From: Desulfotignum sp.
GTDB taxonomy: Bacteria; Desulfobacterota; Desulfobacteria; Desulfobacterales; Desulfobacteraceae
NCBI GenBank assembly: GCA_021737695.1
Contig: JAIPDL010000030.1
Coordinates: 1-39,421 of the forward strand
Direction: 5' to 3'
DNA length: 39,421 nucleotides
The notes under the pieces were generated by a model. That model was not told the DNA's origin. It searched no databases and saw only the letters and a program-made list of their open reading frames with translations. Numbering within the stretch: the stretch's first letter is position 1; every line of letters starts with the position of its first letter. Below, piece by piece: positions 18,631 to 33,986 of the stretch. A program made the translations under genes and the position numbers.

Positions 18631-19800
18631 CTACCAATCAGCTGTGATCATGTGCATTGTGCATGCTGCATGCTCCGTGCCTGACAACCCGCCCCCCGTT
18701 ACGTGAGACATCGCAACCTTTGGAATGGGTTCAACCTGATATCCGTTGCATTCTCCCCGGAGTTGTTTAACATTGGCCGCTATCTGAGCTGCCCCGGATG
18801 CGCCGATAGGGTGTCCATAGGACAGCATCCCGCCCCTGGGACTGACAACGCACTGTCCACCATAGGTAGCCTGGCCGTCTCTAAGAAATTTCAGCCCTTC
18901 ACCTTTTCCGCACAGCTGCATGCATTCATAGTAAAGTAATTCCGCAATGGTAAAGGCATCGTGCAATTCGAGAATATCCACATCCTTAGGTCCTATTCCG
19001 GATTCCTCGTACAGCATTTCAGAGGTCATCTCCGTTATGTCGTCACCGGTAATATCCCTTGGCCGGTTATGATATGGACCCGATGTTACCACGGAGCCCC
19101 TTACTTTGACCGGTTTTTCAATCCCCAGTTTCTTGACCATCTCTTTAGAGCAGACAACTACGGCTCCAGCCCCGTCGACAATGCCGCAACACTGATGCAG
19201 GGTCAAAGGATAGGCAATCATCCGGGAATCAATGATCTCTTGTATGGTATAATCCCCTCCAAAAGGTGCATGGGGATTGTTCTTTCCATGACGGCGGCTT
19301 TTCTGGGTGATCAGTGCTAAATCCTCAATGGTAGCACCGGTCTCGTACATGTAACGAGTAGCCCGCATGGCATACTTACCGGTCATAACCCCGCCGTGAA
19401 CTGTTTCAATATCGTTCATGGCCGGCATGAAGGCAGTACCGCTCTTACGACGAAGGGTATGATTTTCTGCACCAACGCCCATGGACAACTCAGTCAGTCC
19501 ATAGGCCACATCTTTGATAGCCAGATGTACCGCCATGGCGCCGGCAGAACAAGCACTTTCGACATTGATGATAGGAGTAGTGCCACAGACACCGAGGTCC
19601 TTAAAGATTGTCTGACCAGTAACGATACCGTTGTGCGCGTTGCCCACATAAGCACTGCCGATCATTCCCGGACTATCGATATTGGAGGCCTTAATCGCCT
19701 GGAATGCCGCGTTCCGTCCCAATTCATCATAATCTATCTTATGCTTGCCGAAAACCGTTTCTCCTACGCCTGCAATATAAACATCTCTCTGTAATTTCAT
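18631..19800 (-). CDS. bbsB: Thiolase subunit of benzoylsuccinyl-CoA thiolase (BbsB)
   Basis: SCP2-type thiolase of 389 residues that cleaves the beta-keto thioester to an aroyl-CoA and succinyl-CoA. The nucleophilic cysteine is Cys84 in [16 protein letters not shown]; the His of the [13 protein letters not shown] motif and the late [14 protein letters not shown] segment complete the active site. It begins 9 bp after the bbsA stop codon. In Thauera BbsB forms a stable complex with the zinc-finger protein BbsA, and the gene pair here is arranged the same way. Confidence 0.92.
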
Positions 19801-19809
19801 TAGAGTCTC

Positions 19810-20238
19810 CTAAGCTTTCTGGAACATGTAACTGGTGATCGGCAGACCATCGGTATTCATTCTGATCGGGCCTGTTGTCAACTCAACTTCTTCATTGCAT
19901 TTGAATGTATTGACCTCGCCTTTGAGCATGGCGAAAATTCTGACATTCTCAGGCAGATCAATATAACCACAAATATAAGGCGTTTCCAAACCCGGTTGAC
20001 CGATGTACAAATCGGAAAAGCTGTATAAGGTTCCTTTTCTGGATAACGGCACCATTTCAAATTCTTCCCCCCAACAGTTGGCGCACGGGGTTACTTTGGG
20101 GAAATCCAGTTGACCGCATTTTTTACATTTATACCCTTTCAGATAGGGAGGTTCGTTTTCCGGAACCGCCAATAGATCTGGATGGTAAAATGTAATATCC
20201 GGTTCTTTTTCTTTTTTAACCTTTTTTTTCTCAGCCAT
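19810..20238 (-). CDS. bbsA: Zinc-ribbon/OB-fold subunit of the thiolase (BbsA)
   Basis: A 142-residue DUF35-type protein: zinc ribbon with CKKCG and CANCWG pairs (about residues 37-60), then an OB-fold with KGTLYSFSDLYIGQPGLETPY. The N-terminus has a lysine-rich KKKVKKEKE stretch. Such proteins accompany SCP2-like thiolases, and BbsA is an integral part of the BbsAB thiolase in toluene degraders. It is the first gene of the long minus-strand operon, with AAGGAGG before the ATG and a candidate promoter about 115 bp upstream. Confidence 0.92.
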   Translation of the reverse strand: MAEKKKVKKEKEPDITFYHPDLLAVPENEPPYLKGYKCKKCGQLDFPKVTPCANCWGEEFEMVPLSRKGTLYSFSDLYIGQPGLETPYICGYIDLPENVRIFAMLKGEVNTFKCNEEVELTTGPIRMNTDGLPITSYMFQKA

Positions 20239-20351
20239 GGAGCCTCCTTATTAGAACGGTTGAATGAAAAACAATGTGCATTGATTTTTCAATATACTGA
20301 AATTAAAGACCAATTTAATTATTATAAATTTTACACTATTGATAGAAACTT

Positions 20352-20380
20352 ATTTTATGTTATTATTGAGGAGTATTCAA
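20352..20380 (-). promoter_or_regulatory. Candidate promoter of the bbs operon
   Basis: On the minus strand TTGAAT (20375-20380) and TAAAAT (20352-20357) are separated by 17 bases. The first box lies inside the shared 16-bp motif, so a protein bound there would cover the -35 region. The leader to the bbsA start codon would be a little over 100 nt. Confidence 0.45.
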
Positions 20381-20381
20381 T
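20366..20381 (-). promoter_or_regulatory. Candidate operator, motif copy 1 (bbs side)
   Basis: Minus-strand sequence ATTGAATACTCCTCAA. It matches copy 2 at 15 of 16 positions and shares the ATTGAAT-N4-CTCAA skeleton with copy 3. The outer TTGA and TCAA form an imperfect dyad. It overlaps the -35 box of the candidate bbs promoter. Binding by the tandem TetR protein is an inference from position. Confidence 0.5.
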
Positions 20382-20393
20382 CACATGGTTTTG

Positions 20394-20495
20394 AGCGTGT
20401 CAAGCGCAAAGGATACATTTTTTTTTGGCGCAAAAGAAAAATAAATGATTTTTTTTGATAACACTTTGAAAAAAATAACTATTATTTGACACGCT
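20394..20495. repeat. Perfect 10-bp inverted repeat with 82-bp spacer
   Basis: AGCGTGTCAA at 20394-20403 and its exact reverse complement TTGACACGCT at 20486-20495. It lies just upstream of the candidate bbs promoter. The wide spacing argues against an RNA hairpin and suits two protein-binding sites in opposite orientation, or chance. Confidence 0.5.
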
Positions 20496-20771
20496 GAAGA
20501 AAAATTTTTAGAAAAATACCTTATTGTACCTGAATAACGAAAGAGGCAAAGCCATTGTTTTTGAAAAATAAAATTGAATTTTCATCAAAATATCATTTTT
20601 GATGGCAGCATTATGTTTTGCAGGTGGGCGACGAAACATTTTTGCAGGATGGTGGATATCAACTTTCACTAAAGAACCCTGATAGAAACTGAATGCCCCT
20701 AATCGGGAATATAAACCGCTTTCTTACAAACGACCTCAATTTTCAACCGCGTTTGTTCAATTCAACACATC

Positions 20772-22019
20772 CTAACCATCGATAATTTTTTCAGATTTCG
20801 GAACTACGGCCCGGCAAAGGAGATCGGTAACGGAAGCCAGCTCCGACATCATTCGAATGGGCGAGACCCGCTCAAGCACAAACCAGCGGATACAAAGATG
20901 GGAAAAAGCACCCAAAAAAAGATTCCGGAACACTCTGTTGCTCAAATCCTGGCGAAAAACACCACAAGCTTTTCCCTCATCTAAAATGTCATATAAAATC
21001 TCACTGGTGTCTAAAAAAGCGCCAAATGCTTCAGTATTGTAGAATCGCTTATTCAGCTTGATGTCGCATAAAAAAATCATCAAAAAATCACTGTCTGATG
21101 AAAAAATCCGAAAATATTCCCAAACAAACGATCTAAGCTTCTCCAGGGGATCCTTTACCGTAAAAACCCCTTTTAATTGTACCTGAAAAGACAAAAATTT
21201 ATTCCTGGGTATGGAAAACAGCAACTCCTGCTTGTTTTTAAAATATTCGTATATTGTCCCTTCTGCAACCCCTGCATGCTCTGCTATCTCGAGCATAGTC
21301 GTTTTTCGATGACCTTTCCGGGCAAAAATTGACACAGCAGCTTCAGAAACCCTTTCAGCTTTATCATTTCTGTCATTTTTCACTGCGGCCGCGATCTCAG
21401 GATTCATAACAGGATTCATTCCATCTGTGTCAATCCCTATCATAGCCATGATCAGTGACATGATGGATTCAAAATCAGGCAGAGTTTCATCAATTTCCCT
21501 GTATGCCAGGCAACTCAACGATTCTTCGTCCAAAAAACCAAAAATCATGTCCCTGGTAATATTTATCTCAAGATCTTCTCGAAAATATTTTTCCTTGACT
21601 CCTTTTTTCAATATATCCAGCATAACCCCAGCATATCGTTGAAGCGCCTTATATCCGGTATGGTTGTAATAGTCTTTATTAGAACGGCATTCAAACAAAA
21701 GGTTTTTCATCTTACGCGCATCACCGGAGCTAAAATCATTCTCGTACAAATGAAACCAGACCATCTTCCCAAGTTGAGATACCGGCCCCCAAAGGCCCTT
21801 GAAGTGAAACAAAAGCTCCTCATGAGACTTTTCAATCAGCTCCTCTATTGAAGAAAACAAAAGATCCTGCTTGTTTGTAAAGTAATGATATATTATTGAA
21901 TCAACAACATCCGCCTTTTTTGCAATCTCAGAAATAGTGGCTTTCGCAAGTCCCTTTTCTGCAAATATTTCCTGAGCTGCCCGAAGGATGGCTTGCTTTT
22001 TTCCGTTATTATTTTGCAT
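20772..22019 (-). CDS. Transcriptional regulator with two TetR units in tandem
   Basis: A 415-residue protein made of two complete TetR/AcrR-type units in one chain. The first DNA-binding domain is at about 7-55 (ATISEIAKKADVVDSIIYHY, then FTNKQDLLF), followed by a ligand-type helical domain to about 200. A second domain follows at about 215-270 (TTMLEIAEHAGVAEGTIYEY, then FKNKQELLF) with its own C-terminal helical domain. Ordinary TetR proteins are about 190-220 residues and dimerise; here one chain could supply both halves. It lies between the divergent bbs and glycyl radical enzyme operons. Known toluene clusters are often controlled by the TdiSR two-component system, which is absent from this window. 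The start is an ATG with GGAG about 10 bases upstream. Confidence 0.9.
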   Translation of the reverse strand: MQNNNGKKQAILRAAQEIFAEKGLAKATISEIAKKADVVDSIIYHYFTNKQDLLFSSIEELIEKSHEELLFHFKGLWGPVSQLGKMVWFHLYENDFSSGDARKMKNLLFECRSNKDYYNHTGYKALQRYAGVMLDILKKGVKEKYFREDLEINITRDMIFGFLDEESLSCLAYREIDETLPDFESIMSLIMAMIGIDTDGMNPVMNPEIAAAVKNDRNDKAERVSEAAVSIFARKGHRKTTMLEIAEHAGVAEGTIYEYFKNKQELLFSIPRNKFLSFQVQLKGVFTVKDPLEKLRSFVWEYFRIFSSDSDFLMIFLCDIKLNKRFYNTEAFGAFLDTSEILYDILDEGKACGVFRQDLSNRVFRNLFLGAFSHLCIRWFVLERVSPIRMMSELASVTDLLCRAVVPKSEKIIDG

Positions 22020-22123
22020 TCAAATACGCTCTCCTATGCTCTCCCAGCCTTTACTGATAACTCCAGCAAAACAACACGCTCTCAAACGACAATCAATCAC
22101 TCGAACCTCTAATGATATTTTAA

Positions 22124-22151
22124 ATTATAGCAGACTTAGAATATTATTCAA
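22124..22151 (-). promoter_or_regulatory. Candidate promoter of the tandem TetR gene
   Basis: On the minus strand TTGAAT (22146-22151) and a perfect TATAAT (22124-22129) are 16 bases apart, about 105 bp upstream of the start codon. Motif copy 2 lies 11 bases upstream of the -35 box, which would allow autoregulation. Confidence 0.5.
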
Positions 22152-22162
22152 CCATTTTTGTT

Positions 22163-22178
22163 TTGAGCAGTATTCAAT
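22163..22178 (-). promoter_or_regulatory. Candidate operator, motif copy 2 (TetR side)
   Basis: Minus-strand ATTGAATACTGCTCAA, identical to copy 1 except for one base (G instead of C). It lies just upstream of the candidate TetR promoter. Confidence 0.5.
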
Positions 22179-22345
22179 AAATCATGGGACGATACATCAC
22201 AAAACGCGCTGAGCGAAAAAATTAAGCCCACTGTCATCGCCTACCATAAAACCCCATTGAGTGAATTCATTATTTCCTCTTTCATAAAAATTTAACCTTT
22301 GTCGTTTCTTCAAAAAAAACATCTTGACAAGACCATTTATAATTG

Positions 22346-22361
22346 ATTGAATGAAACTCAA
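22346..22361 (+). promoter_or_regulatory. Candidate operator, motif copy 3 (glycyl radical enzyme side)
   Basis: Plus-strand ATTGAATGAAACTCAA. It shares all 12 outer positions (ATTGAAT and CTCAA) with copies 1 and 2, while the 4 central bases differ. It points toward the glycyl radical enzyme operon and begins 17 bp after a TTGACA hexamer, so it could overlap the -10 region of that operon's promoter, although no good -10 box is evident. Confidence 0.42.
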
Positions 22362-22616
22362 TAATTTAAAAATCAACAATGATATTCAAAGCTGAGCGGT
22401 TTAACATTCTGATCTTGTCATTGGTTCGATAAAGACGACGTGAGGAGGTAACGTTCATTCAAAAAATTTAAAAAAGCATTTTGTATCGCGTACATTGACA
22501 TGTTTCCAAAAAGATCACTACTCACTGGGAACATGACAAATACTGCAATCCGCCGAAGCGAGCTTTGCAATACGGTAATTTTTACACCAAAGAATCTTAA
22601 GCAAGGAGGATCAAAA

Positions 22617-22793
22617 ATGCCCAAATGTGAAAAATGCACTTTTTTCTTTCCAATTCCTGAGAAGGATATGGATTTCGAACCTGGCAAAGGGGATTGCGTT
22701 GAACAGCAGCAGGATACAAAAGGCAAATTCTGGCTGTCCAAACCGGTATCGGAAAACAGTGAGGCCTGTCAGCGTTACAGACCTAGAAACTGA
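22617..22793 (+). CDS. bssC: Benzylsuccinate synthase-type gamma subunit (BssC-like)
   Basis: A 58-residue protein that strongly resembles BssC: KCEKCTFFFPIPEKDMDFE, then GKGDCVEQQQDTKGKFWLSK and PVSENSEACQRY. Four cysteines (4, 7, 27 and 51) are placed to hold the low-potential [4Fe-4S] cluster known in BssB and BssC. The start is the ATG after GCAAGGAGGATC; the frame extends upstream, but without a better ribosome site. It is the first gene of the operon and 60 bp ahead of the catalytic subunit, as in toluene clusters, although the activase does not precede it here. Confidence 0.9.
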   Translation: MPKCEKCTFFFPIPEKDMDFEPGKGDCVEQQQDTKGKFWLSKPVSENSEACQRYRPRN

Positions 22794-22853: not shown

Positions 22854-25283
22854 ATGCCGACAACAGAAAGAACCGCAAGACTTAAAAACCGATGCCGCTT
22901 CAAACATGTCGCAGGAGGAGAATATGTAGACCCTGGTGTAAAGGCCGGAGTGGAACGCGCCAGACTCATCACCCAGGCTCACAAAGAAAATATAGGAGAG
23001 CCCACCAGCATCATCCGGGCCAAAGGACTTGAGAACATCCTTAAAAAAATTACCATCCACATCCAGGATGACGAACTGATCGTAGGCGCCAATACGGAGC
23101 ACCCCGATTATTTTCCGATGTATCCGGAGCTTTCCTATTTTTCAACTATGGATATGGTTGAAAGTCATTACTGCGATCACAAAGAGGAAATGGCAGAAAT
23201 CGCCGAATACTGGAAACCTTACACCATTCAAAGAAAAGCGGAAAAATATTTCACCCCTGAAGAAATTGGAATCATGTATTCCGCAACCACTGTCCAACCG
23301 CCCATGTTTGTCACAGCATTTTCCAGCATTGTGCCCAATTATGAATCCGTTATTGAAGATGGACTGCTGAAAAGAATCGAAGTCGTTGAACAAAAAATTG
23401 CAGATGCTGAAGAGGAAATTCGAAAATCTCCCTGGAATGCGCCGGAGAAACTGCATTATCTGGACAAGATAGACCAGTGGCAGGCCATGCTCATAGCTAT
23501 GAAAGCAGTTGTAGGATGGGCACAGAGGCACGCCAGACTGGCTAAAATTATCGCTGAAAATTTTCTGACCGATCCAAAGAGAAAAGAAGAATTGCTCGAA
23601 ATTTCAGACATCTGCCGGCATGTTCCGGCCTATCCCGCCAGGGGCTTGAAAGATGCCATGCAATCCAAATGGTTCACATTCCTTCTTTGTCACAGTATCG
23701 AACGGTACAGCAGCGGTTATGGACACAAAGAAGACAAGCTTCTCTGGCCGTTCTACAAAAAAAGTGTCATTGAAAAAAACGAGCAGCCCATGACCCGAGA
23801 AGAGGCTGTTGAACTTTTCGAATGCGAAAGGCTCAAGGTTTCCGAACATGGCAGCACCAAAGGCAGACAACTCAGGGAGTTTTTCGCGGGGTCCAACGAT
23901 CTTTTCATCCTCACCCTCGGTGGGATCAACCCGGATGGGTCAGATGCCAGCAATGACTGCACCAATGCCATTCTGGAGGCCGCAGAAAATATTGTCACCA
24001 CAGAACCGTCCATTGCCTTCCGATGGAATGAAAAAGGCAATGTGGAAACCAAAAAAAGGGTTTTTAACTGCATCAAAAAAGGATTTGGATTCCCCTCCAT
24101 TAAAAATGATGAGCTGAACACCCAGCAATTGATCAAATATTTCAATGTTCCTGAAGAGATTGCCAGGGACTGGGCACTTGTGCTGTGCATGTCCCCTGGC
24201 ATTACGGGACGAAGAGGCACACAGAAAACCCGCAGTGAAGGCGGATCAGACGTATATCCGGCAAAGGTCATGGAAATCGCTCTGACCAACGGGTTTGACG
24301 AATTTTTCACCAATATGCAGCTGGGTCCCGAAACTGGTAATGCAGAAGAATTCACCAGCTTTGATCAAGTCTGGGAGGCCGTAAAACTTCAACTACGCTA
24401 TGCCATTGAGCTCAGCCTGAGGTCCAAGGACGTGGGGCGTATCATGGAATCCAGATATCTTTGCTGTCCTTTCATTTCAAGTATTGATGATGGATGCGTT
24501 GAAAAAGGACTGGACGGCAATGAACTGGCTGAAGTGGCGAATCCCTGGCACAATATAATCGGCGGCAGCGTTGTCGTCGTTGATTCCATGGCAGCCATCA
24601 AAAAGCTGGTGTTTGACGAAAAAAAATATTCAATGAAAGAATTGATGGACGCGCTACGGAACAATTGGGAAGGCAAAGAAGAAATGCGGCTCGATTTCTG
24701 GAATGCTCCAAAATTCGGCAATGACGATCCCTATGCCGACGAAATTGCCACCAAATATTATGACCTGATCGCCGATGAATGGAAAAGAAATACCACATAT
24801 TCAGGCACATTCCCATTACCTCTGGCCCAGTCTGTTGCGGGTTACATCGTCAACGGCCCTAAAACGAATGCAACAGCCAACGGCAGGCATGCCGGTGAAG
24901 CTCTGGATGACGGGGGCATCTCGCCTTACATGGGTTGCGATAAAAATGGGCCGACCGCTGTACTCAAATCCGTATCAAAAATTAACGGATCAAAACATAA
25001 AGGTATCCTATTAAACCAGCGTTTATCTACTGTTCTCATGAACAGTGATGCCGGTTTCGATCTCTGGCACGCCTATATGAAAACCTGGCATGGCTTAGGC
25101 ATTGATCATGTCCAGTTCAATGTAATTTCAAGCGAAGAAATGAAAGCTGCACAGATTGAACCTGAAAAACATACTGATACGCTGGTCCGAATCGCGGGTT
25201 ATAGTGCAAAATTCATTGACCTTGCACGGTATTCCCAGGATACGATTATAGCACGGACAGAACAGGATCTTGCTGCTGGATAA
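22854..25283 (+). CDS. bssA: Benzylsuccinate synthase-type glycyl radical enzyme, catalytic alpha subunit
   Basis: Glycyl radical enzyme of 809 residues that would add the methyl carbon of an arene to fumarate. The thiyl cysteine is Cys445 in VLCMSPGITGRR; the radical glycine is Gly782 in RIAGYSAKF. Their distance (337) is within one residue of the 336 I recall for Thauera BssA (Cys493, Gly829). With a constant offset of 48, other BssA active-site residues also match: Arg460 (Arg508, fumarate carboxylate), Trp565 (Trp613), Ile569 (Ile617), Gln659 (Gln707) and Val661 (Val709). The N-terminus is therefore about 48 residues shorter than Thauera BssA. AGGAGG precedes the ATG. The substrate may be toluene, p-cresol, a xylene or another methylarene. 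An alkylsuccinate synthase is less likely given the complete bbs set. Confidence 0.93.
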   Translation: MPTTERTARLKNRCRFKHVAGGEYVDPGVKAGVERARLITQAHKENIGEPTSIIRAKGLENILKKITIHIQDDELIVGANTEHPDYFPMYPELSYFSTMDMVESHYCDHKEEMAEIAEYWKPYTIQRKAEKYFTPEEIGIMYSATTVQPPMFVTAFSSIVPNYESVIEDGLLKRIEVVEQKIADAEEEIRKSPWNAPEKLHYLDKIDQWQAMLIAMKAVVGWAQRHARLAKIIAENFLTDPKRKEELLEISDICRHVPAYPARGLKDAMQSKWFTFLLCHSIERYSSGYGHKEDKLLWPFYKKSVIEKNEQPMTREEAVELFECERLKVSEHGSTKGRQLREFFAGSNDLFILTLGGINPDGSDASNDCTNAILEAAENIVTTEPSIAFRWNEKGNVETKKRVFNCIKKGFGFPSIKNDELNTQQLIKYFNVPEEIARDWALVLCMSPGITGRRGTQKTRSEGGSDVYPAKVMEIALTNGFDEFFTNMQLGPETGNAEEFTSFDQVWEAVKLQLRYAIELSLRSKDVGRIMESRYLCCPFISSIDDGCVEKGLDGNELAEVANPWHNIIGGSVVVVDSMAAIKKLVFDEKKYSMKELMDALRNNWEGKEEMRLDFWNAPKFGNDDPYADEIATKYYDLIADEWKRNTTYSGTFPLPLAQSVAGYIVNGPKTNATANGRHAGEALDDGGISPYMGCDKNGPTAVLKSVSKINGSKHKGILLNQRLSTVLMNSDAGFDLWHAYMKTWHGLGIDHVQFNVISSEEMKAAQIEPEKHTDTLVRIAGYSAKFIDLARYSQDTIIARTEQDLAAG

Positions 25284-25376: not shown

Positions 25377-25583
25377 ATGGCAACCTGTAAAGAATGTAAA
25401 TTCATCACGCCCTCCCCCACAGGAGATCCCAGCACCGGTATCTGTCTGGTTGACAGAATGCAGCTTGCTGAAACGCAGAAGACCAAAACAGCCATCAGGG
25501 GTAAGATGGTACAAAAATCCATGGAGTCATGCCCAAAATTTGAAGCTGGTGAATCCTGGAAAGACATTAAAAACCTTATATGA
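25377..25583 (+). CDS. bssB: Benzylsuccinate synthase-type beta subunit (BssB-like)
   Basis: A 68-residue protein with a CKECKF motif at the N-terminus and four cysteines in all (4, 7, 23 and 52), the pattern of the [4Fe-4S] beta subunit that covers the active site of the alpha subunit. Other recognisable pieces are ITPSPTGDPSTGICLVDRM and ESCPKFEAGE. AAGGAG precedes the ATG by 8 bases. It lacks the longer N-terminal extension I recall in Thauera BssB, so it is shorter (68 against about 80 residues). Confidence 0.85.
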   Translation: MATCKECKFITPSPTGDPSTGICLVDRMQLAETQKTKTAIRGKMVQKSMESCPKFEAGESWKDIKNLI

Positions 25584-25617
25584 AGTTTCTAAAAATCAAT
25601 CATGAAGGGTGGAAAAG

Positions 25618-26694
25618 ATGACATTTATTGATTCTGGAAAAAAACATTTGGTTACCCACATACAGCATTTCTCCGTCAATGACGGCCCCGGCATTCGGAC
25701 CACAGTATTTTTAAAAGGATGCCCCCTGAATTGTGCATGGTGCCACAACCCGGAGAATATCCATACTTATCAGGAATTTTTCTATTATGAGGAAAAATGC
25801 GTAAAATGTGGTGCCTGTGCTGAAAATTGCCCTGAAAAAGCCATTATTCCACCCCGGATTCGATACAAGGAAGACATAGCCCAGATAGTAAGATTTGGGG
25901 GTGGGGATGGATCCATTCCTACAAATTTGCAACATAACCTGCCTAACACCACTGCTCTGTCAGATGAAAAGGAAATTGAAGCCATCGATCCCCCCCGAAT
26001 TGATCGAGAAAAATGCACCAGTTGTATGACTTGTGTGGACGTTTGCCATCACGAGGCACTGAACTTTGTCAGTACTTTGAAAAGTGTGGAAGAAATCTTT
26101 GAGGAAGTATTGAAAGATGACCTATTTTTCAAATCTTCCGGCGGAGGATTTACCGTTTCAGGCGGAGAGCCCCTTATGCATCCGGATATGACCCTGTCGC
26201 TGGTGAAACGAGCAAAAAAAGAAGGATTGAACACGGTTCTAGATACCTGTGGATTTGCCAACTGGAATACCACCCGACCGATTCTTGAGCATGTCGACCT
26301 GATAATGCTGGATATCAAATCCCTGGATGATCAGAAACACAAAAAATGGACCGGTGTATCCAACCGGCTGATTCTGGAAAATGCAAGAAAAATGGCTGAA
26401 ACCGGCATCAAGATGCGCCTCAGACTTCCCATCATCCATTCTGTGAATTTCTGGGATCTTCAATATCCCAAAGACATTGTCAAATTTGCCAGGACCTTGG
26501 GAAAAAACATCATTGGTATTGACCTGCTCCCGTTCCATAACTTTGCAAGCAAAAAATGTGGAAATCTCGGGAGAAAAGGCTATTTTGATAATTTCCCTAA
26601 TATTTTCAGAGAGGAAATTGAAGATTATAGAAAAATTATCAGTGACGGCGGCACATGGCAAACAACCATAGGCGGATTGATTGGAGTAAGCTGA
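25618..26694 (+). CDS. bssD: Radical SAM glycyl radical enzyme activase (BssD-like)
   Basis: Activating enzyme that generates the glycyl radical using SAM. I start it at the ATG at 25618 (358 residues) because AAGGGTGGA lies just upstream; a GTG at 25609 is also in frame. The SAM cluster is CPLNCAWC (Cys35, 39 and 42). Two inserted ferredoxin-type clusters follow: CVKCGACAENC (61-71) and CTSCMTCVDVC (133-143), separated by an insert longer than in the second activase. Further motifs are GGGFTVSGGEP and LLPFHNFASKKCGNLGRKG; the latter resembles the end of Thauera BssD. It is downstream of the structural genes, whereas bssD comes first in the classic bssDCAB order. Confidence 0.9.
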   Translation: MTFIDSGKKHLVTHIQHFSVNDGPGIRTTVFLKGCPLNCAWCHNPENIHTYQEFFYYEEKCVKCGACAENCPEKAIIPPRIRYKEDIAQIVRFGGGDGSIPTNLQHNLPNTTALSDEKEIEAIDPPRIDREKCTSCMTCVDVCHHEALNFVSTLKSVEEIFEEVLKDDLFFKSSGGGFTVSGGEPLMHPDMTLSLVKRAKKEGLNTVLDTCGFANWNTTRPILEHVDLIMLDIKSLDDQKHKKWTGVSNRLILENARKMAETGIKMRLRLPIIHSVNFWDLQYPKDIVKFARTLGKNIIGIDLLPFHNFASKKCGNLGRKGYFDNFPNIFREEIEDYRKIISDGGTWQTTIGGLIGVS

Positions 26695-26696
26695 TA

Positions 26697-27728
26697 ATGA
26701 TACAAAATATGGGCATCATAACCAATATACAGAAATTCGCCTCCAACGACGGACCGGGGATTAGAACCACCGTGTTCCTGAAAGGCTGCCGGCTGAACTG
26801 CAAATGGTGCCATAATCCGGAAGGCGTGAGGCACTTCCCTGAAGTCTTTCATTTCTGGCCCAACTGCATCAATTGCGGAAATTGCAGAACCATATGTCCT
26901 GCTAATGCTATGACGGAAACCCGAAAGACACCGACCTATCCTGACCATAAAGGCTGGAAAGGAAAAATCGGCTCAAAAATCATTACCATAAATAAGGAAA
27001 AATGCCTGAACTGTTTCCAGTGTGTCGATATTTGTGATTTCGACGCCTTGATAGTCAGCGGAAAATTCATGACCGTGGAAATGGTGATGGCTGAAATCGA
27101 AAAAGATATCCCTTTTTACAACCAATCTGGCGGCGGGCTGACCCTTTCCGGAGGAGAACCTGCGGCCCAGCCTGAATTTGCCCTTGCACTGCTTAAGGCG
27201 GCAAAAGAAAAAGGAATCAATACCGCATTGGATACCAGTGGATATCAATCATGGGCTATTCTTGAAAAAATGATAGATTATACGGATTATGTCCTTTACG
27301 ACCTCAAACACCTTGACCGGAAAAAACACATTGCTTTTACCGGTGTTTCAAACGATTTGATTTTAGAGAACCTTGAAAAAATCATCACTCGTAATGATCT
27401 TACCACCTTTATCCGGATTCCTCTCCTTCCAGGGGTGAATGATTCCGAAGAAAACCTCAGGGCAACGGGTCAATATGTTCAATCCCTGGGTCTAAAAACA
27501 GTTTATCTGTTGCCGGCACACCCATTTGCAGGTCAGTCCTATCGTCTTGTCGGCATGGACTATCCGTATCCCATCGGTGAAAGTTACCCTGAAGCAAAAG
27601 CGAAAATTGCTCAAACCATACTTAAGTCCTACGGTTTAGATGTAAAAATGTGGATCGCCTGGGTCGAAGACCATATCTCAGAAAAATCTTCACTCCATCA
27701 GACCGATACTAAGGTTCAGACAAACTGA
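26697..27728 (+). CDS. Second radical SAM glycyl radical enzyme activase
   Basis: A second activase of 343 residues with the same layout: SAM cluster CRLNCKWC (Cys31, 35 and 38), ferredoxin-type clusters CINCGNCRTIC (57-67) and CLNCFQCVDIC, GGGLTLSGGEP, and a C-terminal YLLPAHPFAGQSYRLVG segment that differs from the BssD-like LLPFHNF. I start it at the ATG 2 bases after the stop of the first activase; an upstream frame overlaps that gene. Only one glycyl radical enzyme is in the window, so the second copy may be a spare, may assist, or may act on an enzyme elsewhere. It is clearly a paralogue and not a recent exact duplicate. Confidence 0.88.
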   Translation: MIQNMGIITNIQKFASNDGPGIRTTVFLKGCRLNCKWCHNPEGVRHFPEVFHFWPNCINCGNCRTICPANAMTETRKTPTYPDHKGWKGKIGSKIITINKEKCLNCFQCVDICDFDALIVSGKFMTVEMVMAEIEKDIPFYNQSGGGLTLSGGEPAAQPEFALALLKAAKEKGINTALDTSGYQSWAILEKMIDYTDYVLYDLKHLDRKKHIAFTGVSNDLILENLEKIITRNDLTTFIRIPLLPGVNDSEENLRATGQYVQSLGLKTVYLLPAHPFAGQSYRLVGMDYPYPIGESYPEAKAKIAQTILKSYGLDVKMWIAWVEDHISEKSSLHQTDTKVQTN

Positions 27729-30429: not shown

Positions 30430-31404
30430 TTACCAATATGAGAGAAGTTTTTCAGCCGCAGCCGAAGGAGTGATTTTCTCCTCCCGGACCTGCTGGGAAA
30501 GCACCGGAATTTGCCGGCGGATGGCTTCGTGGTTATGAAAACGTATTTTCAACCCGTCTTCCACCAGGGTCCACATCCATTCCAGGGCCTGGCTTTTGCG
30601 GCGCTGGTCAAACTCCCCGGACCGCCTGACAATGTCCTGGTGCGCCCGCACCTGTTCCCATACGGGCACGGTGCCGTTTTTTTCAACGGACGAACAGGTC
30701 ATCACAGGGGTCTGCCAGGAGGCAGATGCCGGCAGGATCAGGTGCATGGCGTTTTCCAGGTCTTTTTTGGCCCGGGCCACCCGGTCCTGGTTGTCCCCGT
30801 CCGCCTTGTTGATGGCAATGCCGTCCGCCAGCTCAAGAACCCCTTTTTTAATGCCCTGGAGTTCATCTCCGGCCCCGGCGATCATGAGCACCAGGAAAAA
30901 ATCCACCATGGCAGCCACGGCCGTTTCAGACTGGCCCACGCCCACGGTTTCCACCAGGATCACGTCAAACCCTGCGGCCTCGCACACCAGCATGGTCTCC
31001 CGGGTTTTGGCGGCCACGCCGCCCAGGGTCTCGCCGGCAGGGGACGGCCGGATAAAGGCGTTGGCATGGGCGGCCAGTTTTTCCATCCGGGTCTTGTCTC
31101 CCAGAATGGATCCGCCGCTGCGCCGGCTGGAGGGGTCCACGGCCAGCACGGCCACCTGGTGGCCGGCATCAGCCAGATAGACCCCTAAATTTTCAATAAA
31201 CGTGCTCTTGCCCACCCCGGGCACACCCGTGACCCCCAGCCGGGTGCTGTTGCCGGCCATGGGCAGAATCTGCTCCATGATCTTTGCCGCCATCTCCTGG
31301 TGGGCCGGCACCCGGCTTTCGATCAGGGTCATGGTTTTGGCGATCATGCGCCGGTTCCGGTCTTTGACCCCCTGAATCAGGGTTTTCAGATCCATTTCCG
31401 GCAT
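30430..31404 (-). CDS. meaB: MeaB/ArgK-type GTPase, methylmalonyl-CoA mutase chaperone
   Basis: G3E-family GTPase of 324 residues that protects and reloads B12-dependent methylmalonyl-CoA mutase. The P-loop is GVTGVPGVGKST, followed by LAVDPSSRRSGGSILGDKTRM, VETVGVGQSE and INKADGDN. It starts 3 bp after the mcm stop codon, so the two are coupled. The DNA is GC-rich, unlike the preceding aromatic operon, which marks a sharp composition change at about 30430. Confidence 0.95.
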   Translation of the reverse strand: MPEMDLKTLIQGVKDRNRRMIAKTMTLIESRVPAHQEMAAKIMEQILPMAGNSTRLGVTGVPGVGKSTFIENLGVYLADAGHQVAVLAVDPSSRRSGGSILGDKTRMEKLAAHANAFIRPSPAGETLGGVAAKTRETMLVCEAAGFDVILVETVGVGQSETAVAAMVDFFLVLMIAGAGDELQGIKKGVLELADGIAINKADGDNQDRVARAKKDLENAMHLILPASASWQTPVMTCSSVEKNGTVPVWEQVRAHQDIVRRSGEFDQRRKSQALEWMWTLVEDGLKIRFHNHEAIRRQIPVLSQQVREEKITPSAAAEKLLSYW

Positions 31405-31407
31405 TTT

Positions 31408-33528
31408 TTACGCCCCCAGGATGTTCAGGATCTGGTTGGCGGAATCGGTCACCACGGTACCGGGCCCGAAAATACCGGCCGCGCCGGCCGTTTTCAAAAA
31501 CGCATAATCCCCGGGCGGGATAATGCCGCCCACCACCACCTTGATATCGGATGCCCCCTGTTTTTCAAGTTCCCGGATCACCTGGGGCACCAGGGTTTTA
31601 TGGCCGGCGGCCAGGCTGGACACCCCCACCACATGGACATCGTTTTCCACGGCCATTTTGGCGGCTTCCTCCGGGGTCTGGAACATGGGGCCCAAATCCA
31701 CGTCAAACCCGAAATCCGCATATGCCGTGGCAATCACCTTGACTCCCCGGTCATGGCCGTCCTGGCCCATTTTGGACAGCAGAATTCTGGGCCGCCGGCC
31801 CGTCTGTTTTTCAAAATCCGCCGTGCGCTTGCGCAGCGATGCCAGAATCTCCGGGTCCGTGTTCTGGGCATACACCCCGGAAATACACTGGGTGGTGGCC
31901 ACAAACCGGGTGAACACCTTTTCCATGGCATCGGAGATCTCCCCCACCGTGGCCCTGGCACGGACTGCGGGCAGGCAGGCAGCCAAAAGGTTGCCCCCGG
32001 TTTCACAGGCTTTTTTGATCTCATCCAGGGCTTTTTTCACAGCCTCGCTGTCCCGGGTTTTCCGGGTCTGTTCCAGGCGGGCCACCTGTTCGTTGCGCAC
32101 CTCTTCAGACACCTCTCTCACCGGGATCGGGGCCTCATCGTCCACCCGGTACTTGTTGACGCCCACAATCACATCCTTGCCCTGGTCGATGCGGGCCTGG
32201 CGCGTTGCCGCCACCTCTTCAATACGCATCTTGGGCATGCCCGACTCGATGGCTTTGGCCATGCCGCCCAGGTCCTCGATCTCTTGCAGGATTTTTCGGA
32301 CCTCATCAATGATGTTCTGGGTCAGGGTTTCCACGTAATAGGACCCTCCCAGAGGATCCACCACGTCACAGATATGGGATTCCTCCTGGACAATGATCTG
32401 GGTGTTGCGGGAAATCCGGGCCGACAGCTCCGTGGGCAGGCCCACGGCTTCATCAAACGAGTTGGTGTGCAGGCTCTGGGTGCCGCCCAGCACGGCGGAC
32501 AGGCACTCCAGGGTGGTGCGGACAATGTTGTTGTAAGGATCCTGCTGGGTCAGGCTCCAACCCGATGTCTGGCAGTGGGTCCGCAGCATCTTGGATTTGG
32601 GATTTTTGGGATTGAACTGACTCATCAGCTCGGCCCACAGAAACCGGGCCGCCCTGAGCATGGCAATGTCCATGAAAAAATTCATGCCGATGCCGAAGAA
32701 AAAAGACAGCCTGGGCGCGAACTTGTCGATATCCAGGCCCGTGGCCAGGGCCGCCTTGACATATTCCAGCCCGTCGGCCAGGGTAAAGGCGGTCTGGAGC
32801 ACGGAATCGGCCCCGGCTTCCATGATGTGGTACCCGGAAATACTGATGGTGTTGAATTTGGGCATATGATCCGAACAGAACCCGATGATGTCGGAAATGA
32901 TCCGCATGGACGGTTCCGGCGGATAGATATAGGTGTTGCGGGTCAGATATTCCTTGAGAATATCGTTCTGGATGGTGCCCGTGAGCTGCTCATGCTTCAC
33001 CCCCTGCTCTTCGGCCGCCACGATATACCCGGCCAGAATGGGCAGCACGGCCCCGTTCATGGTCATGGACACAGACATTTGGTCCAAAGGGATCTGATCG
33101 AACAAAATTTTCATATCTTCCACGGAATCAATGGCCACGCCGGCTTTGCCCACATCGCCCGCCACGCGGGGGTGATCCGAATCATAGCCCCGGTGGGTGG
33201 CCAGGTCAAAGGCCACGGACAGCCCTTTCTGGCCGGCGGCCAGGTTTTTGCGGTAAAATTCGTTGGATTCCCTGGCCGTGGAAAACCCGGCATACTGGCG
33301 GATGGTCCAGGGCCTTCCTGCATACATGGTGGCTTTGGGTCCCCGGACAAAGGGATCGAATCCCGGCAGGGTGCCGGCACATGCCAGGTCCTGGGTGTCC
33401 AGATCCGTGTACAAGGGTTTGATGTCGATCCCTTCGGGTGTTTTTTTAGTCAGAGACGACAGCGGTTTTCCCCGCAATTCCTTTTCGGCCAGCGCTTCCC
33501 ATTTTTGAATATCAGACGGATGAGACAT
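31408..33528 (-). CDS. mcm: Methylmalonyl-CoA mutase, B12-dependent, single chain
   Basis: A 706-residue mutase interconverting succinyl-CoA and (R)-methylmalonyl-CoA. The N-terminal TIM barrel has the [17 protein letters not shown] and [13 protein letters not shown] segments and [13 protein letters not shown]. The C-terminal cobalamin domain has the GQDGHDRG motif (lower-axial His in DxHxxG). A GGAGGA site precedes the ATG. It is transcribed with the epimerase and MeaB. In this setting it links succinyl-CoA to propionyl-CoA metabolism. It resembles the housekeeping enzyme and nothing marks it as specific for alkylsuccinates. Confidence 0.96.
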
Positions 33529-33584
33529 GGTTATCCTCCAGATTTGTCTGTCACAGGTTATGTCAGGGGTTGATCTTTTCTTTG

Positions 33585-33986
33585 CTACCGTTCACACAAC
33601 TCCACCAGCACCCCGGCCGTGGCCTTGGGGTGTAGAAACGCGATTTTGGCACCGCCGGCCCCTTTTCTGGGGGTTTGATCGATGAGCTGAATCCCTTTTT
33701 CCTTGAGTTCGGCCAGAGCGTCTTCAATGTTTTCCACCTGAAACGCCACATGCTGGATGCCTTCGCCTTTTTTCTCGATGTATTTGGCAATGGGCCCGTC
33801 CGGAGCTGTGGATTCCAGGAGCTCCACCTCGCTTTCTCCCACAGGCAGAAACGCAGTGGTCACTTTCTGTTCTTCAACGGTTTCCGTGCCTTCCAAAGAA
33901 AGCCCCAGCCCGTCCGTCCAGAAATTTTTCCGGCCGTCAATGCTGTTGACGGCAATGCCCAGATGATCGATTTTCAATATTTTCAT
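33585..33986 (-). CDS. mce: Methylmalonyl-CoA epimerase
   Basis: A 133-residue vicinal-oxygen-chelate protein that interconverts the two methylmalonyl-CoA epimers. Metal-ligand regions are KIDHLGIAV at the start and [16 protein letters not shown] in the middle; the ending [13 protein letters not shown] is typical. Length is normal. A GGGAGGA site precedes the ATG. It is the first gene of the mce-mcm-meaB operon, with a candidate promoter 53-82 bp upstream. Confidence 0.94.

Follow-up and report, generated by a model that had tools for sequence, protein, structure and literature searches.

A tandem TetR protein as a probable single-chain repressor of arylsuccinate degradation in a lineage of sulfate reducers

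FadR (YsiA) of Bacillus is a TetR repressor which responds to acyl-CoA. Regulators carrying two TetR units in one chain are known but infrequent, with 204 putative members predicted in Actinomycetes (PMC11667970). One of these is Mce3R (Rv1963c, PDB 9b7y) of Mycobacterium tuberculosis, whose chain folds into an asymmetric unit and whose operator is nonpalindromic. According to the accessible part of that paper, a single ligand-binding domain is reported, and an intermolecular assembly was considered and an intramolecular one found (PMC11667970).

Another kind of protein is described for the control of anaerobic toluene degradation. In Azoarcus sp. CIB the TdiSR system controls the bss, bbs, and its own promoters, with benzylsuccinate as the proposed inducer (PMC5874301, accessible text). 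In the literature found, the switch-on of toluene and cresol degradation in sulfate reducers is much less described than TdiSR of a denitrifier. For Desulfobacula toluolica Tol2, TetR regulators are mentioned in connection with the toluene and p-cresol clusters, and the TetR-family regulator BzS1_13070 is also named with toluene/p-cresol clusters (PMC13416013, accessible text); such regulators are likewise mentioned for p-cresol in Desulfobacteraceae (PMC11887813, accessible text). A search of the mainly open literature, partly in extract, found no double TetR chain or operator of one in these clusters of sulfate reducers.

The locus described here lies in a 39,421-nt stretch of a Desulfotignum sp. 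contig (JAIPDL010000030.1), referred to as the window. A first-pass annotation made from the letters alone had placed a regulator built of two TetR units between two operons, and its coordinates, strand, and length are correct, with one open frame from an ATG start (Table 1). The 415-residue protein has two stretches matching Pfam TetR_N (E 6.2e-31 for the protein) and scores 106.4 bits against a gathering score of 24, which places it in the TetR family. The YsiA-like ligand domain TetR_C_4 also matches two stretches, the best being residues 124–165. Each chain thus holds two complete units of HTH and ligand-type domain, making it a double TetR, and the two recognition helices quoted previously, ADVVDSIIYHY and AGVAEGTIYEY, are both found in the translation. 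The C half scores 176.4 bits against the NCBIfam FadR model (NF053878), under its curated cut-off of 200. Given the FadR/YsiA-like ligand-type domains, and a FadR structure holding stearoyl-CoA (title of 3whc), a CoA ester is favoured as the ligand and its sensing by this chain is plausible.

The surroundings also agree with the first-pass annotation. The bbs operon lies on the minus strand, in the same direction as the regulator gene and 533 bp downstream of it, and the glycyl-radical-enzyme operon lies on the plus strand. Behind BbsA and BbsB come two SDR dehydrogenases, two CoA-transferases, an acyl-CoA dehydrogenase, an enoyl-CoA hydratase, and ETF subunits; bbsC to bbsH are named by order and family, with no cut-off passed. 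The plus-strand operon also encodes two activases, a large protein without an NCBIfam match, and an ATPase with GvpN/CobS-like matches, which we take to be MoxR/BssE. The first-pass annotation had stated that no TdiSR-type system is present, and no two-component protein was found among the part of the window's ORFs that was scanned. The two glycyl-radical-activase genes are in tandem with overlapping frames (25609–27728) within one bss-type operon. Two activase copies stand at separate places in L038, L047 (G245), L051 (G077), L053 (G115), and L136 (G011), and an activase is found at one place only in L041 and L137. Genes for a MeaB GTPase, a full methylmalonyl-CoA mutase, and an epimerase (30430–33986) follow the bss operon on the opposite strand.

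Table 1. Coordinates of the regulator gene, candidate control elements, and neighbouring genes (window positions unless a locus is given)
Feature	Position	Strand	Remarks
Tandem TetR regulator gene	20772..22019	-	415 aa, ATG start, one open frame
N-terminal TetR unit	21429..22019	-	about residues 1-197; HTH column tallies D40, S41, H45
C-terminal TetR unit	20775..21386	-	about residues 212-415; HTH column tallies E253, G254, T255, E258; FadR-like
Candidate operator before bbs operon	20366..20380	-	TTGAATACTCCTCAA
TTGACA, putative -35	20398..20403	-	17 bp before TTGAAT of bbs site
Candidate operator before regulator gene	22163..22177	-	TTGAATACTGCTCAA; no TTGACA in front
Second, degenerate site	22137..22151	-	TTGAATAATATTCTA; one mismatch, 26 bp from 22163 site
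Putative regulator-gene promoter	22124..22151	-	TTGAAT-N16-TATAAT; consensus match only
Candidate operator before glycyl-radical-enzyme operon	22347..22361	+	TTGAATGAAACTCAA
TTGACA, putative -35	22324..22329	+	17 bp before TTGAAT of bss site
bbsA, first bbs operon gene	19810..20238	-	BbsA 267.4 bits vs cut-off 250
bbsB	18631..19800	-	BbsB 776.2 bits vs cut-off 750
Small bssC-like gene	22617..22793	+	by position, size, and conservation beside bssA; no NCBIfam match
bssA-like glycyl radical enzyme	22854..25283	+	809 residues
Second small ORF, bssB-like	25377-25583		68 residues; by place and cysteines; no family match
26-bp site pairs before regulator gene	L038 4940 and 4966; L047 8760 and 8786; L040 4318 and 4344		

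A candidate operator, TTGAAT-N4-CTCAA, was seen first by eye and then by script before the bbs operon, the bss operon, and the regulator gene, which puts candidate sites in both flanking intergenic regions. Relatives carry similar sites before bbs, bss, or the regulator gene. We consider it likely that the protein represses anaerobic arylsuccinate (toluene-type) degradation as a single-chain pseudo-dimer of the TetR type. Within a chain, the two TetR units would pack together like two normal TetR subunits, with one chain per operator. Their two unlike recognition helices would read the two unlike halves of TTGAAT-N4-CTCAA; we infer both the binding and the pairing of helix with half-site. At the bss and bbs promoters the TTGAAT half may double as an (extended) -10, where bound protein would block RNA polymerase, and the additional sites before the regulator gene would allow autoregulation. 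The releasing ligand would be an intermediate of the pathway, with an arylsuccinate, an aryl-CoA, or an arylsuccinyl-CoA as the most likely candidates.

The predicted fold is compatible with such packing. A structure prediction had been suggested in the first-pass annotation, and the AlphaFold2 model, made from a seven-row alignment, is of moderate quality (pLDDT 75.6, pTM 0.73). Its first whole-chain match in the PDB is Mce3R (9b7y), a loose one, with a TM score of 0.61 by query length and an rmsd of 7.2 over 422 columns. As single TetR chains reach only ~0.4, both units of the model appear to superpose on Mce3R at once, at least roughly. The model of the Desulfosarcina cetonica relative is weaker (pLDDT 70.2, pTM 0.59). 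Mce3R is again its first match, with a TM score of 0.50 and an rmsd of 12.8, where single chains already reach 0.43.

The promoter geometry bears on the direction of control. In the bss and bbs promoters of relatives TTGACA stands 17 bp before TTGAAT (16 in L137), often as TGnTTGAAT, and TTGACA-N17-TGnTTGAAT looks like a sigma-70 promoter in which an extended -10 doubles as a half-site. A consensus promoter scan of 20200–22700 gave 10 promoter-like sites against 7.5 in shuffles (sd 3.5), which is no excess, and the bss and bbs promoters were not among them; the -35 and -10 assignments thus derive from conservation. At position 2 TTGAAT also lacks the A expected of a -10. Since the putative -10 is poor and these promoters were not called, while TTGACA is kept, the protein may instead be an activator on the same site, needed for bss/bbs transcription and helping polymerase at promoters whose -35 is good but whose -10 is poor. 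In the compared promoters of bss, bbs, and the regulator gene the sites also keep one direction relative to their gene, bar one doubtful site (L052), but this fixed direction follows equally from a shared -10. The core of the site lies on the -10 candidate itself, where a bound protein would usually block, and most described TetR proteins repress (PMC3511530, accessible text). Activation is therefore judged rather unlikely, and repression is the direction we infer.

The pseudo-dimeric repressor would be expected to meet unlike half-sites, and most candidate sites have them. Among 27 core sites, 22 are unlike (TTGAA/TTGAG), five are TTGAA/TTGAA, and none is TTGAG/TTGAG, against expected values of 13.0, 9.5, and 4.5 (p 0.00035, with related sites treated as independent). 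Leaving out L132 and L133, which were fetched by the pattern itself, gives 19 unlike, five alike, and none (p 0.0013), and leaving out the window as well gives 16, five, and none (p 0.005). Without the TTGACA-linked sites, for which TTGACA in front of symmetric sites was looked for on both strands, the counts are nine unlike, four alike, and none (p 0.056, kinship of sites ignored). Overlap with the promoter element, with TTGAAT as a -10, may account for part of the asymmetry. Across 52 aligned proteins both recognition helices are conserved with differing column tallies. The N-terminal helix has D40 in 37, S41 in 49, and H45 in 34, and the C-terminal helix has E253 in 46, G254 in 47, T255 in 49, and E258 in 37. 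The mostly unlike half-sites thus appear to fit two unlike HTHs per chain.

A different arrangement would have two chains associate, N unit with N unit and C unit with C unit, forming two symmetric dimers that read two palindromes and respond to two ligands. All five symmetric TTGAA/TTGAA sites, in five loci, are in the interval from the regulator gene to bss. In three relatives an unlike site and the symmetric full site TTGAAT-N4-TTCAA are exactly 26 bp apart on the regulator side. The bss promoter of L041 (9442–9490) has TTGACA-N17 and, where an unlike site would usually stand, the fully symmetric TTGAATAGAATTCAA; this promoter therefore does not need unlike halves. This site takes weight from the pseudo-dimeric repressor, and from the reading of separate clusters by paralogues discussed below, and gives it to N-with-N pairing. 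The complete lack of TTGAG/TTGAG among the 27 sites argues against such pairing, as does the outcome for Mce3R, where an equivalent assembly was considered and the intramolecular one found (PMC11667970, accessible text). Pairing between chains is thus considered improbable.

It may also be that the conserved motif is a promoter element only and not a binding site for the regulator, a view favoured by the inclusion of TTGACA-N17 at bss and bbs. The distribution of the motif makes this quite improbable. The core also occurs without TTGACA, in nine of the 22 unlike sites, five of which stand before the regulator gene itself. The enrichment of the motif counts for the pseudo-dimeric repressor. In 31 stretches (28,624 bp), chosen after the motif was seen by eye and mostly intergenic, TTGA[AG]N5[CT]TCAA has 25 sites, against two in the remaining 300,402 bp of the same loci; six of these stretches exceed 1,000 bp and some of the six hold genes. 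At least one site is present in 18 of the 31 stretches, and the other 13 have no exact site, which counts against this reading. A looser weight matrix, trained on 14 sites seen previously, finds sites in some of the 13.

The extended pattern TTGACA-N17-TTGAAT-N4-CTCA is confined to nine of the 291 genomes of the order searched, with 19 matches, compared to none for the reversed pattern, and in eight of the nine there is a tandem TetR with identity of 45% or more. By tblastn positions, 14 of the 19 matches precede bss/bbs-type genes, and one lies before a homologue of the MmgE/PrpD gene that trails the window's bbs run. Of the other four, two stand in front of an orthologous methyltetrahydrofolate:corrinoid methyltransferase gene, each in a different genome, one stands in front of a DctP gene, and one is unassigned. 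These last four, which are not before bss/bbs-type or related genes, are in favour of a promoter element. The methyltransferase matches (L129 8827, L130 9712) are in genomes of the window's family, with a corrinoid protein gene alongside, and no bss/bbs genes were found in either stretch. The DctP-type gene, of a TRAP transporter, begins ~170 bp after the pattern (L128 9153, G245).

The motif was also looked for outside the order, where eight of 18 matching genomes were fetched, giving eight tandem TetR loci not used in motif discovery. Two of the eight loci, L169 and L170, had bss/bbs-type genes. In L169 one site, with TTGACA, lies before bbsAB, and a second one before the regulator gene. Neither scan found a site in L170, which lies beside a glycyl radical enzyme and bbs operon and so counts against the repressor reading, and none was found in the six other loci.

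The search for proteins of about 400 residues with two TetR units, as the first-pass annotation had suggested, shows that they exist and that they co-occur with bss/bbs-type genes. In the order, 60 of the 291 genomes have a match to the regulator at E ≤ 1e-25, many of them full length, with the best six first-look candidates per genome scored (the best four outside the order). The alignment and tree hold 52 full-length tandem proteins including that of the window, with duplicates and incomplete copies removed; L048 and L049 (same contigs as L040 and L041) and the incomplete L043 and L080 were left out. Rows were labelled for bss/bbs neighbours by tblastn of 21 window proteins against the flanks, and 15 of the 52 received the label. 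Of these, 14 make up one clade (100/99) with the window inside. The 15th, whose neighbour is a glycyl radical enzyme of 55% identity, falls in a five-row sister group, and clade and sister group together form 19 rows, again at 100/99. The label changes twice on the tree, compared to a mean of 13.1 when shuffled. BssA-like enzymes (E ≤ 1e-200) occur in 10 of the 291 genomes and tandem TetRs at E ≤ 4.4e-103 in nine, with seven genomes having both (Fisher p 1.3e-10, with the TetR cut-off chosen afterwards).

The exceptions differ in kind. G156 and G011 have a BssA-like enzyme but no close tandem TetR, and their bss contigs end near bssC or bssA; operator-like sites are present in both, and in G011 the 5.5 kb upstream of bbsA hold no tandem TetR. 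G042 has BssA-like enzymes that are only 57% identical, and its only tandem TetR is a 35% relative on another contig. G245 has a lone bssCA-like pair with no tandem TetR close by, and in G280 the nearest tandem TetR is ~22 kb away from a 50% identical BssA-like enzyme. The extra pair of G245 is at L140 11457–11750 (BssA 86%), and no other searched-for window gene and no operator-like site was found in the 19.5 kb of L140. G245 also has a second bbs operon (L056, L142), which adjoins a glycyl radical enzyme of 55% identity and has a tandem TetR paralogue of its own close by; this may possibly be a p-cresol set. In G280 there are at least six tandem TetR paralogues among the best six candidates scored, four of them beside bss/bbs-type genes, and two of these four lie within ~25 kb of each other.

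A regulon reaching the distant tandem TetRs was also considered and rejected, as none of the 33 rows outside the 19-row clade has a bss/bbs gene of at least 50% identity in the fetched flanks. Several have enoyl-CoA hydratase- or acyl-CoA dehydrogenase-like genes nearby (27–43%) and once a glycyl-radical-enzyme-like gene. A partial neighbour scan of seven loci gave a mixed set, with MFS and MarR proteins, ribosomal protein S6, an IS66 transposase, a periplasmic binding protein, and enoyl-CoA hydratase. These many distant rows suggest a large, little-studied double TetR family in the phylum.

The first-pass annotation had raised a frameshift or an assembly join of two TetR genes, but this artefact can be dismissed, as relatives of 73–75% identity on independent Desulfobacula and Desulfobacteraceae contigs, and of 56–57% in Desulfosarcina cetonica and a groundwater MAG, are the same single-frame chain, three of them in single-contig genomes, with similar G+C in both halves, 52 full-length tandem proteins aligned, and no point found in its favour. 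A recent duplication of one TetR was rejected on other grounds, as the halves lack strong DNA similarity (79% over one 42-bp stretch). A tree of 72 rows, built from 22 N halves, 22 C halves, and 28 single TetRs, places none of the N halves among the C halves; the latter form one weakly supported set (61/77) and the former two sets. This is compatible both with sister halves from a duplication and with the fusion of two TetRs.

Taken further, this lineage of sulfate reducers may control fumarate addition by fused TetR pseudo-heterodimers and not by a two-component system. The paralogues would have multiplied with the pathways, each guarding its own arylsuccinate cluster by way of an operator that is directional, embedded in the promoter, and mostly asymmetric, and each sensing its own aryl intermediate. 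This wider view is tentative, and we regard it as somewhat short of probable. The locus nonetheless provides a regulator family, a candidate operator, and a promoter geometry that are open to gel shift. It also gives a marker to predict which operons belong to the regulon and a second lineage for comparing fused TetR chains and unlike half-sites with those of Mce3R, and the gene may be a natural one-gene aromatic sensor for reporter strains.

Set against the known systems, the idea of a single-chain pseudo-dimer with unlike half-site readers gains from the HTH tallies, the Mce3R match, and the mostly unlike halves of the candidate operator, while the novelty is less than the first-pass annotation implied, as double TetRs are known and TetRs in the toluene/p-cresol clusters of D. 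toluolica are in print. TdiSR, a sensor kinase with a response-regulator activator, is an unrelated protein. The TetRs of D. toluolica Tol2 and BzS1_13070 share the kind of cluster and the TetR label, and from their description are probably members of the same family as the window's regulator; the accessible text of PMC13416013 has no mention of a double chain or an operator for them. FadR gives the best single-unit matches for the C half, with an NCBIfam score that falls under the cut-off, but has one TetR unit per chain.

The closest likeness in architecture is to Mce3R, with two TetR units in a chain of ~400 residues, two unlike HTHs, and an operator, here a candidate with mostly unlike halves, that is not a plain palindrome; Mce3R controls an adjacent operon and its own gene (PMC11667970, accessible text), as is proposed for the regulator here. 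By sequence only the HTH region matches (query 209–272 to Mce3R 4–67, E 2.9e-7), and with no homology found along the chain beyond this HTH-length match, orthology is not indicated. Mce3R also belongs to another phylum and other functions, namely cholesterol, lipid transport, and reactive oxygen, and its sites are 25-bp asymmetric sequences (PMC11667970, accessible text) compared to the 15-bp near-palindromic candidate described here. The double TetR is thus a kind already known, here in a separate lineage and pathway, whereas this branch and its DNA site look newly described.
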